Shown here piece after piece: positions 4,642 through 8,095 of a stretch of DNA of 64,000 bases. The DNA lies in NCBI GenBank assembly GCA_026984795.1, contig JALSRK010000015.1, forward strand, positions 1 to 64,000. Reading direction: 5' to 3'. The position numbers were made by a program, and so were the translations under genes. Positions within the stretch are counted from its first letter, which is position 1. Each line of letters begins with the position of its first letter. The DNA is from Solibacteraceae bacterium (lineage in GTDB: Bacteria; Acidobacteriota; Terriglobia; Bryobacterales; Bryobacteraceae). The notes under the pieces were generated by a model. That model worked only from the letters and a program-made list of their open reading frames with translations, had not been told where the DNA came from and did not search any database.

Positions 4642-5682
4642 CTAGTGCGCTGCCGCCGCCGGTTGCGGGCGATGCTCCCGCCACAGTTCGATGTACGGCT
4701 TCAGCTCCTCCATGAGCTGCTGGAACTGCTCGATGTAGAGTGACTGCTTGCCGTCACTCCAGGCTGCCTCCGGGTTCGGGTGGACTTCGATCATGAGGCC
4801 GTCGGCGCCGATCGCCACGCCGGCTTTGGCGAGCGGCGGGACCAGGCTGCGCCGGCCGGTCGCATGACTCGGGTCGAGCAGCACGGGCAAGTGGGTCTTC
4901 TCCTTGAGTACCGCCACTGCGGTGATGTCGCAGGTGTTCCTCGTTTCGGTCTCGAAAGTGCGGATGCCGCGCTCACACAGGATCACTTGCGAATTCCCGT
5001 GGGCGACGATGTACTCGGCCGACATGAGGAGTTCCTTGATCGTCGAACTCATCCCCCGCTTGAGCAGGATGGGCTTCCCGACGCCGCCGAGGGCTTTGAG
5101 CAAAGCGAAGTTCTGCATGTTGCGGGCGCCGATCTGCAGGACGTCGGCATACTCGGCTACGACCGGGACGTTACGATCGCTCATCACCTCGGTGACGATA
5201 GCCAGGCCGGTAGCCTCCTTGGCCTTACGCAGCAGCTTCAGCCCGTGCTCCTGGAGACCCTGAAAGTCGTAGGGAGAAGTCCGAGGCTTGTAAGCGCCGC
5301 CGCGCAGCAGCCTGGCGCCGGCTTTGGCGACCCCTTCGGCAGCCCGCATGATCTGGTCTTCGGACTCGACCGAGCAGGGCCCGGCGATGATAGTAAAGTC
5401 ACTCCCCCCGAACTCCGCGCCGTTCACCCTGATCACGGTATTCTCCTTTCGGAACTCCCGACTCACGAACTTGTACGGGGCGGAAATCGCCACCGCCTTC
5501 TCGACCTGGTCCATTGCTTCGAGGGCCTCCAGACACGGCGTGACATCGCCGATGCCGACAGCGCCGATCACCACGCGCTCCTCCCCTTCGATGGTGTGGA
5601 TTTTGTAACCGAACTCCCGGATGCGGCGGCACACGGCTTCGATCTCCTCCCTGGTGGAGTGTCGTCTCATCGAAATGATCAT
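4642..5682 (-). CDS. aroF: 3-deoxy-7-phosphoheptulonate (DAHP) synthase, class I-beta
   Basis: It catalyses the first step of the shikimate pathway, joining phosphoenolpyruvate and erythrose 4-phosphate. The 346 residues comprise an N-terminal ferredoxin-like (ACT-like) regulatory domain of about 70 residues and a TIM barrel with the motifs GPCSVES (near 107), [16 protein letters not shown] (near 135) and GARNMQNF. This is the Thermotoga-type architecture, in which the N-terminal domain senses aromatic end products. It lies about 210 bp downstream of the trpEG fusion on the same strand. The gap carries an aromatic-rich leader peptide and attenuator, so expression is likely set by Tyr/Phe/Trp-tRNA charging as well as by feedback inhibition. 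Confidence 0.96.
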
Positions 5683-5710
5683 GACTACCTCGCCATGGGG
5701 GTGTTCCCCA

Positions 5711-5743
5711 AAAGAAAAAGCCCCACTCGCCGCGAGTGGGGCT
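5711..5743 (-). terminator. Intrinsic terminator of the aroF attenuator
   Basis: On the minus strand AGCCCCACTCGC (5743-5732) pairs with GCGAGTGGGGCT (5730-5719), a perfect GC-rich stem, followed at once by a T-rich run (TTTTTCTTTT). It ends trpEG transcripts or, in the regulated setting, cuts the aroF leader RNA. It lies only about 30 nt before the aroF ATG, so it must be bypassed for aroF to be expressed. That placement is what marks it as an attenuator rather than a simple gene-end terminator. Confidence 0.9.
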
Positions 5744-5791
5744 GGTCTGGAAATCTCTTTGCGTCCGGCCTATACCAACTCCACCCGCGAC

Positions 5792-5842
5792 TCAGCCATA
5801 AGGCCAAAATCGAAAGGCGAAGCTGGGATAGGGGTACCGCAT
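5792..5842 (-). CDS. aroF leader peptide, 16 aa with Tyr3 Phe3 Trp1
   Basis: Reading ATG 5842-5840 to TGA 5794-5792 gives MRYPYPSFAFRFWPYG: seven of 16 residues are aromatic, and all three aromatic amino acids are present. Such density is very unlikely by chance. It lies directly ahead of RNA segments able to form antiterminator and terminator stems before the DAHP synthase gene. No Shine-Dalgarno sequence sits at the normal distance; a promoter-like sequence 11 bases upstream suggests a nearly leaderless mRNA. The peptide has no function of its own: its translation reports the supply of charged tRNA-Tyr, tRNA-Phe and tRNA-Trp. Confidence 0.85.
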   Translation of the reverse strand: MRYPYPSFAFRFWPYG

Positions 5843-5852
5843 CAAGAGAAAC

Positions 5853-5881
5853 AGTGTAAGACAAACTCCGGGCGAATGCAA
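5853..5881 (-). promoter_or_regulatory. Candidate promoter of the aroF leader
   Basis: On the minus strand TTGCAT (5881-5876) and TACACT (5858-5853) are 17 bp apart, a plausible if imperfect sigma-70 pair just after the trpEG stop. The expected start point, near 5846, lies about four bases before the leader-peptide ATG. Confidence 0.5.
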
Positions 5882-5890
5882 GGCCAAAAT

Positions 5891-8095
5891 TCAGCGGCGG
5901 ACCGGCCGCTGGACGGGAGGCGCCCCTCCGCGCTCTACCTCCCCGCGGCGCCCGTAGATCCGCACGACGTTTTCCATCAGCTTCAGCCCGCAGTCGTCCT
6001 CGAGCGTCAGGATCGATTCGGGGTGAAACTGTACGGCCTCAACGGGCAGCTCCTTGTGGCGGACGCCCATGATCACCCCGTCGTCGGACTCGGCAGTGAT
6101 TTCCAGGCAGGAAGGCAGCTTCTCGCGGACGGCGTAGAGCGAGTGATAGCGGCCTACTTTGAAGCGCTCCGGGAGGCCGGCGAAGACGCCGGCGCCTTGG
6201 TGATGCACAATCGACGGCTTGCCGTGCATCGGGTAGTCGAGCACGCCGAGCTCGCCGCCGAAGGCTTCGACGGCCCCTTGCAGGCCGAGACAGACGCCGA
6301 ATACGGGAATGCCGCGGGCGGCGGTTTCCCGCACGAGATCCGGGACGCCGAAGTCGGCGGGACGGCCAGGTCCCGGCGAGATGAAGACGATGTCGGGCGC
6401 TTCCTTTTCCAACAGCTCCATGGGGAAGCCCCAGCGGTAGGTGACCACCGTGGCGCCGGTCTGACGAACGTAGTTCGATAGGGTGTGGATGAAGCAATCC
6501 TCGTTGTCGACCAACAGCAGCTTGGCACCCTCGCCGGGGCGCTCCCGGATTTCGACGCGAGGCGTCTGGGGTTCGGGCTCCTCCCGGATGGCGCGGAAGA
6601 ATCCGGTGGCCTTCATTCGCGTTTCGCGCTCCTCTTGCTCGGGAATCGAGTCGTACAGCAGCGTGGCGCCGACCCCGTATTCGGCCTTCCCGTTGCGCAG
6701 GTGAACAGTGCGGATCAGGATGCCGGTGTTCATGTCGCCGTTGAGCGAGATCATGCCGATAGCGCCGCCGTACCAGCCGCGAGGGGTCTTTTCGAGGTCT
6801 TCGATCGCCTGGGCCGCGGCCTTCTTCGGGGCTCCGATCATGGTCACCGACCACATGTGGGTCAGGAAAGCGTCGAGAGAGTCGAAACCCTCGGCCAGAA
6901 TCCCCTCCACATGGTCTACCGTGTGGAACACGCCGGCGTAAGCTTCGATCAGGCGCCGGCCGATGACCTTGACCGAGCCGGGCACGCAGACGCGGGACTT
7001 GTCGTTGCGGTCCACGTCGGTGCACATGGTAAGCTCGGACTCTTCTTTCGGCGAGGCGAGCAGGTCGCGGATGCTCTCGGCGTCGCGGAGTGGATCGCCG
7101 GTGCGCTTGGCGGTACCGGAAATCGGCGAGGTCTCCACGCGGCGGCCTTCGACGCGGACGAACATCTCCGGCGAGGCGCCGACCAACTGTTCGTCGCCGA
7201 ATTGCAGGAAGAACTCGTAGGGGCTGGGACTGGCCACCTGAATCCTCCGGAACAGCTCCGAGGGACTCTCCGAGAAGGGGGTGCTGAAGGTCTGGCGCAG
7301 GACGACCTCATAGAAGTCGCCGCGGCGCATGCCCTCACGGACGGTTTCCACCTTGGCCATATACTCTTCCGGCGTGTGGTCGGAGACCACCTTGCCCGGG
7401 GGCAGCCGGGGCGTCTCCGGGACCTTCTCGCCGGAACGGGCGAGCCCCAGTGTGGAGTGCCTGCCCCACTCGAAGTCGTACTCGTAGCGGTGGATGACCT
7501 CCTTCTTGCGGTCCATGAAGTAGATGTCGTCGCAGAGGAACAAGTGGAGGTCTTTCGGCCGGTGGCGGGGCTTTTTCTGCTCGATGGGGTCGAAGCGGTA
7601 AAGAAGGTCGAAGCCGAAGGCGCCGACGAGCGCGAGGTGAGGATCATTGCCGGGGCGGAACTCGTTGATCAGGGCCCGGATCACGGAGAAGGCCGACGGC
7701 TGTTTACTGCGTTCCTCTTCCGGAAACAGGGCGGGCAGAGGCTTCAGCACTCCCGCGATGGCGCCGTTCGTGAGCTCGCAGCTCTCCCAGTGCGGATGAT
7801 CTTTCAGGATCTCGAAGAAGATCCGGTTCAAAACCTCGCCGCGCGCGTTCAGCGGCCGGAAGTCTACCCGGCGCTCGAAGGCGACAATCTCCAGCGGCGG
7901 GCGAATCGAGGCGATGTCCCACCGCGAGTAACGGCCGGGATACTCGTAGCCCGAGGAGAGGTAGATTCCCCGATACTCGTCCATCTGGCTGAGCAAGTGG
8001 GCGAGGCCCCGCTCATACGGGATTGGGGTCACCTGCCGGATCACGGCGATCCCGCTGGCCGTCTCATAGCGCCTGTCGTGCATTGCTCGTTCCAT
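5891..8095 (-). CDS. trpEG: Anthranilate synthase, fused component I and II (TrpEG)
   Basis: This 734-residue protein makes anthranilate from chorismate and glutamine, the first committed step to tryptophan. Residues 1 to about 515 form the chorismate-binding TrpE part (typical motifs near PSPYEFFLQFG, ISGTAKRTGDP and the SVTMIGAPKKAA stretch). Residues from about 530 form the class I glutamine amidotransferase, with nucleophile Cys in GVCLGLQ and the His-Glu of FHPES. Fused TrpEG is known from Rhizobium and relatives and is an alternative to separate trpE and trpG. An ATG at 8083 preceded by GGAACGAG is a possible later start. aroF follows behind an attenuator. Confidence 0.95.
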   Translation of the reverse strand: MERAMHDRRYETASGIAVIRQVTPIPYERGLAHLLSQMDEYRGIYLSSGYEYPGRYSRWDIASIRPPLEIVAFERRVDFRPLNARGEVLNRIFFEILKDHPHWESCELTNGAIAGVLKPLPALFPEEERSKQPSAFSVIRALINEFRPGNDPHLALVGAFGFDLLYRFDPIEQKKPRHRPKDLHLFLCDDIYFMDRKKEVIHRYEYDFEWGRHSTLGLARSGEKVPETPRLPPGKVVSDHTPEEYMAKVETVREGMRRGDFYEVVLRQTFSTPFSESPSELFRRIQVASPSPYEFFLQFGDEQLVGASPEMFVRVEGRRVETSPISGTAKRTGDPLRDAESIRDLLASPKEESELTMCTDVDRNDKSRVCVPGSVKVIGRRLIEAYAGVFHTVDHVEGILAEGFDSLDAFLTHMWSVTMIGAPKKAAAQAIEDLEKTPRGWYGGAIGMISLNGDMNTGILIRTVHLRNGKAEYGVGATLLYDSIPEQEERETRMKATGFFRAIREEPEPQTPRVEIRERPGEGAKLLLVDNEDCFIHTLSNYVRQTGATVVTYRWGFPMELLEKEAPDIVFISPGPGRPADFGVPDLVRETAARGIPVFGVCLGLQGAVEAFGGELGVLDYPMHGKPSIVHHQGAGVFAGLPERFKVGRYHSLYAVREKLPSCLEITAESDDGVIMGVRHKELPVEAVQFHPESILTLEDDCGLKLMENVVRIYGRRGEVERGGAPPVQRPVRR

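Follow-up and report, generated by a model that had tools for sequence, protein, structure and literature searches.

What does the 208-bp interval between a fused trpEG gene and aroF do in this Solibacteraceae genome, a 5.2-Mb draft? The window, by which we mean the whole stretch of 64,000 nucleotides analysed, carries both genes on the minus strand, and family profile matches confirm them as the genes between which an earlier note had placed an attenuator: an anthranilate synthase fusion and a class I-beta DAHP synthase. Comparison of the interval with its counterparts in related genomes indicates that the element is very probably a ribosome-mediated transcription attenuator of aroF, which would act as a joint sensor of scarce charged tRNA for Phe, Tyr and Trp.

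The aroF leader region

The attenuator region as a whole occupies 5842..5710 of the window on the minus strand, directly 5' of aroF. In order of transcription, the features are:

5891..8095, minus strand: fused trpEG, anthranilate synthase of the clade-3 type, upstream neighbour (TIGR01815, E 5e-265; NF010081)
5853..5881, minus strand: putative sigma-70-like promoter, TTGCAT - 17 nt - TACACT, by direct reading
5842-5792, minus strand: leader ORF of 16 codons, putative sensor for the supply of Phe, Tyr and Trp, read directly as ATGCGGTACCCCTATCCCAGCTTCGCCTTTCGATTTTGGCCTTATGGCTGA = MRYPYPSFAFRFWPYG
5815..5832, minus strand: segment 1, inside the leader ORF, predicted anti-antiterminator with segment 2 (MFE fold, synonymous-codon test)
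5769..5789, minus strand: segment 2, immediately past the stop codon, partner of 1 or 3 (consensus in relatives (C)GAGTGGCGTTGG)
5731..5746, minus strand: segment 3, partner of 2 (antiterminator) or 4 (terminator) (consensus in relatives CCAACCCACTCG)
5710..5729, minus strand: segment 4 (GAGTGGG) and U tract, predicted intrinsic terminator 3:4
4642..5682, minus strand: aroF, class I-beta DAHP synthase, the gene proposed as controlled (NF006421, E 2e-149; TIGR01361, E 1e-122)

Direct reading upheld the coordinates and the 16-residue peptide of the earlier note: MRYPYPSFAFRFWPYG contains three Tyr, three Phe and one Trp. Its aromatic fraction of 0.44 is the highest among the 192 ATG-initiated ORFs of 12-25 codons on both strands of the whole window, and the next reaches 0.28. 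No Shine-Dalgarno sequence was read ahead of this ORF; the trpL, pheL and pheST leader ORFs of enterobacteria have one. The -10 hexamer TACACT ends 10 nt 5' of the leader ATG by direct reading, so the leader mRNA is apparently leaderless or nearly so.

Three mutually exclusive pairings had been described for the RNA, and two were recovered exactly by direct reading. The 2:3 helix joins CGCGGGUGGAGUUGGU (5789-5774) to ACCAGCCCCACUCGCG (5746-5731) through the same 15 of 16 pairs, and the perfect terminator with its T run is a hairpin (5743-5719) of 11 perfect pairs and a loop of 3, followed by TTTTTCTTTT. The 1:2 helix involves the segments originally named, but the count differs: instead of 16/17, the MFE fold joins 5832-5815 to 5786-5769 by 17 pairs broken by one mismatch. 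The fold energy of the region is -74.4 kcal/mol, versus -50.5 +/- 3.9 kcal/mol in shuffles (z = -6.1).

Conservation and distribution

Is this arrangement kept in relatives? Upstream regions were compared for family aroF loci whose proteins are 70-78% identical, plus a few more distant. Among the 82 loci with enough upstream sequence, which include the window and represent different genera, the element precedes aroF in 63, is absent from 13 and is degenerate in 6. Aromatic leader peptides are therefore kept upstream of aroF as the earlier note had anticipated, with homologous leaders in 62 of the 81 assessable loci besides the window. The shared layout opens with a TATACT-like hexamer, followed 8-10 nt on by an ATG and 13-27 codons in which Phe, Tyr and Trp abound. 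After the stop codon come (C)GAGTGGCGTTGG, a spacer and CCAACCCACTCG, and then GAGTGGG and a U tract. Because the hexamer ends 8-10 nt 5' of the leader ATG (48 of 63 related leaders), the transcript should start at or just before the start codon. An SD-like motif precedes none of the 63 leader ORFs, as against 58 of 63 of their aroF genes. Given this conservation, a chance origin of the window's element is excluded.

A covariance model, R1, was built from 54 leaders. Its single match in the window's own genome is the window element, and one copy per genome is found in 135 of 200 genomes and 54 of 75 genera of the order. Strong matches occur in further families of the class, before aroF at the loci checked. 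Across the phylum at large R1 matches few genomes (12 of 297 at E 0.01, including some other attenuators), although an aromatic leader, CANWFWWPWHF, precedes aroF in family f31. When 69 named aroF loci from many phyla were searched, 11 matched, titled Acidobacteria/Bryobacterales/Terriglobia or Sulfopaludibacter, and the others gave no confident match, the best (E 0.007) lying on the opposite strand. Confident R1 matches among named aroF loci are confined to Acidobacteriota. Nothing relevant was found in Rfam at gathering or permissive thresholds for the window or for the leader and six relatives, and the 208-bp intergenic region had no match in phage records.

Of the weak R1 matches outside the class, most proved on inspection to be other attenuators (of trpE or cysteine genes) and not remote copies of the element. 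Candidate cysteine attenuators in Acidobacteriota have Cys-run leader ORFs with terminators at L230 (G555:C54:82782-82944), L218 (G410:C1:1693021-1693160) and L219 (G424:C7:199762-199895). These ORFs begin MVSPACCCCCCCRP, MIMPNTTSMRCCCCC and MPMCMNNSCCSC, respectively, and are followed in turn by genes that, named by eye, are cysH-like PAPS reductase, peroxiredoxin-like and YeiH-type exporter-like. In other Acidobacteriota families, aromatic or Trp leaders with terminators precede trpE-like genes at L227 (G447:C1:1307373-1307505), L228 (G547:C22:178008-178138) and L231 (G443:C248:41226-41375); the respective leader peptides are MQPAGANNYFWCWYRQGGWSAF, MTTSIRYAWWWYASLREVATD and MISLDANVFFVFGYNYAWRWYSSTRWAVS.

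Covariation and placement of codons

The earlier note had called for compensatory changes in segments 1-4. In statistics that count related genomes as independent, the 2:3 antiterminator helix has 91.6% of its cells paired and 17 double-change cells where 6 were expected, and the 3:4 terminator helix 98.8% and 15 where 3.6 were expected; 0 of 500 shuffles reach the observed value in either case. Changes are linked across segments 2/3/4, which read GGGTGG / CCCACCC / GGGTGGG in L006 and L084 and GAGCGG / CCCGCTC / GAGCGGG in L035 and L041. Segment 3 is strongly conserved because it must fit both 2 and 4. The prediction was thus borne out for 2:3 and 3:4; in one fixed register, 1:2 is 80.6% paired with no significant compensatory changes. 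At least two competing 1:2 registers occur among the leaders, which explains the weak signal in a fixed one.

For 1:2, the synonymous-codon bias is positive. When ORF codons were swapped for synonyms drawn from the same leaders, again counting related genomes as independent, the probability of a ribosome-free antiterminator rose from 0.50 with natural codons to 0.77 with resampled ones (Wilcoxon 8e-9), and from 0.23 to 0.59 in the window; natural codons therefore favour 1:2. Segment 2 lies within the ORF as R-V-A-L-A in L076 and L078 and outside it elsewhere. Translated in some leaders and past the stop in others, it is evidently kept as RNA, not as peptide.

On the same counting, 397 of 1007 codons within the control zone are aromatic versus 3 of 122 beyond it (Fisher 2e-20). 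In a fold model of ribosome position, in which the ribosome hides the RNA as far as 13 nt beyond the first nucleotide of its A-site codon, the mean antiterminator probability is 0.92 for a ribosome on aromatic codons, 0.33 for one at the stop codon and 0.50 with no ribosome. About one third of the leaders have a high antiterminator probability in this simple model even without a ribosome. As modelled, the aromatic codons are placed so that stalling would free the antiterminator and completion would block it, and this is the design of ribosome-mediated attenuation.

Proposed mechanism

How would such a leader work? With transcription beginning at the leader ATG or a few bases 5' of it, a ribosome would load on the leaderless ORF. 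With charged tRNA for Phe, Tyr and Trp plentiful, it would reach the stop codon and cover segment 2, leaving segment 3 free to pair with 4, and transcription would end before aroF. With any of the three short, the ribosome would stall on an aromatic codon, on top of segment 1; with segment 1 occupied, 2:3 would pair, the terminator would be blocked and aroF would be transcribed. If there were no translation, 1:2 pairing would again allow the terminator to form. We infer the start site, the stalling, the termination and the in vivo response, and a response to each of Phe, Tyr and Trp would be expected by the same reasoning. The sequences themselves show the ORF, the pairings, how these are conserved and covary, and where the aromatic codons lie. 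The logic of ribosome-mediated attenuation tuned to three aromatics, as originally proposed, gains support from the conserved leaders and from 2:3 and 3:4 covariation. A leader that pools three aromatics would suit an enzyme feeding all three pathways.

Alternative explanations

Could the aromatics act as peptide and not as codons? The leader would then be a nascent-chain arrest peptide, like TnaC and the Erm leaders, with a small molecule sensed in the exit tunnel. A core like S-F-x-F-R-F-W does recur and Arg between two Phe is common, but Arg and Ser codons also fall in the paired segment 1 region, and the core tolerates substitution freely (FSFYYW in L024, SPYYRG in L053, YWFWF in L073). 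Phe, Tyr and Trp interchange at the same places, Arg gives way to G, Y or Q, and neither length nor C-terminus is constant. Across the leaders, only the aromatic content and its placing with respect to segment 2 are kept, and we regard an arrest peptide as very improbable. A T-box or other riboswitch that is not a translated attenuator deserves almost no credence. A faint resemblance of segment 2 (GGGTGG/GAGTGG) to a T-box motif and an antiterminator as output speak for it, yet the GUGG is paired in that antiterminator rather than unpaired, and the transcript starts with an ORF and is only ~130 nt long, with no room for a stem I. Scanning the window against Rfam put no family over its threshold, and with permissive settings neither the leader nor six relatives gave a T-box (RF00230).

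Does the element instead belong to trpEG? It lies directly after trpEG in the window's genome, and a plain trpEG terminator beside a chance ORF would account for that position. In all relatives, however, the element goes with aroF and not with trpEG, and 2:3 covariation would be useless to a plain terminator; the comparative data already refute this reading, which has next to no chance of being correct. An element forming part of trpEG was likewise rejected, since none of the relatives surveyed has trpEG upstream of aroF within the flank examined. The trpEG neighbour is peculiar to the window's genome and stands outside the conserved attenuator-aroF unit. The window has no terminator-like site between trpEG (5891-8095) and the aroF leader, so read-through from trpEG would cross the attenuator too.

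The last alternative accepts a working attenuator and holds that it senses mainly Phe (and Tyr), the Trp codons being incidental. Phe is present in 63 of 63 leaders, Tyr in 58 and Trp in 56, and Phe codons are the most numerous. Against this, Trp makes up 6.8% of leader residues versus 0.6-0.8% in AroF and TrpEG (about tenfold over AroF), and Trp codons lie in the control zone as Phe codons do, with mean antiterminator probabilities of 0.90 and 0.94, respectively. All three amino acids occur together in 52 of 63 leaders, with means of 3.4 Phe, 1.7 Tyr and 1.2 Trp. Incidental Trp codons are thus unlikely, and joint sensing of the three aromatics is the preferred reading.

Probable loss of the cassette

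What precedes aroF where the attenuator is missing? In most of the 13 family loci without a leader, a -10 hexamer lies close to the aroF ATG. A palindrome, ACACC-N7-(A/G)GTGGTG, is found 79-107 nt upstream of a leaderless-looking aroF at 10 of the 13 with at most two mismatches (L043, L057, L060-L062, L067, L069, L070, L075, L083), and the same palindrome lies ~85-90 nt before the leader ATG in L011, L018 and L023, related loci that keep the attenuator. Exact copies number 0-3 per genome among the genomes searched, and the palindrome may be the operator of some aromatic regulator. The AroF tree requires 7 changes between loci with and without the attenuator, at least 3 of them forced by well-supported branches. 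On the simplest reading, the leader-terminator cassette would have been deleted repeatedly while the promoter stayed in place. As some relatives live without the element, the attenuator is not essential.

Among the degenerate loci, L022, L071 and L081 have a terminator without a clear aromatic ORF, and L031 and L080 have a short aromatic ORF without a terminator. These loci may be snapshots of loss or assembly errors.

Taken as a whole, the element probably represents a class-wide Acidobacteriota regulatory RNA family. In it, one leaderless leader ORF would pool the supply of three aromatics and so take one on/off decision over the committed first enzyme. The element would be cleanly excisable in evolution, since one promoter can serve leaderless starts of both leader and aroF.

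Comparison with known systems

The earlier note knew of no such description for a class I-beta DAHP synthase in a likely Acidobacteriota genome; attenuation of DAHP synthase genes does have precedent (PMC11802643, PMC4046766, PMC8632094). In Corynebacterium glutamicum, aroR precedes aroF and is described as a ribosome-mediated attenuator (Neshat 2014, as reported in PMC11802643; PMC4046766). According to these accounts, a DAHP synthase gene is there too attenuated through an aromatic leader peptide, but the sensor is Phe-Tyr-Phe only and the response is reported under Phe limitation. Compared by description with the present element, aroR belongs to another phylum and is not presented as a class-wide conserved family. 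The uORFC-13-1 motif of Acholeplasma likewise combines a predicted uORF and terminator before aroF, as a predicted attenuator (PMC8632094), but it has Phe codons only, possesses an RBS, is limited to Acholeplasma and environmental sequences, and is a prediction only. Attenuation of E. coli aroF figures as an earlier hypothesis among the works cited in PMC8632094.

The enterobacterial trpL, pheL and pheST attenuators, as outlined through the citations in PMC11802643 (Yanofsky 1981 and others), share the four-segment logic of 1:2, 2:3 and 3:4 and a leader rich in the regulated amino acid, whereas each senses one amino acid and controls end-pathway genes, not the common first step. A leaderless leader has a known precedent in ilvBNC of C. 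glutamicum, where transcription starts 1 nt from the leader ATG and one leader likewise reads several amino acids; that system differs in sensing branched-chain amino acids, in its genes and in a three-hairpin arrangement (PMC11857589). A comparative study of Actinobacteria found no attenuators for Phe or Tyr operons (PMC1262725). Our literature search, largely confined to open-access papers, found no description of this element.

What is known, then, is attenuation before aroF. New are a sensor for three aromatics, its occurrence in this phylum, its conservation across the class and a cassette that has repeatedly been lost cleanly. Attenuators have been inferred in Acidobacteria before, almost none with an assigned function (PMC2965389). 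Unlike most of those predictions, the present attenuator has an assignable target gene, signal and mechanism, and its conservation is enough for an Rfam-style family. Can one leader integrate three amino acids of one shared pathway? The element offers a clean test of this question, and nature supplies many variants of it, including lineages without the switch.
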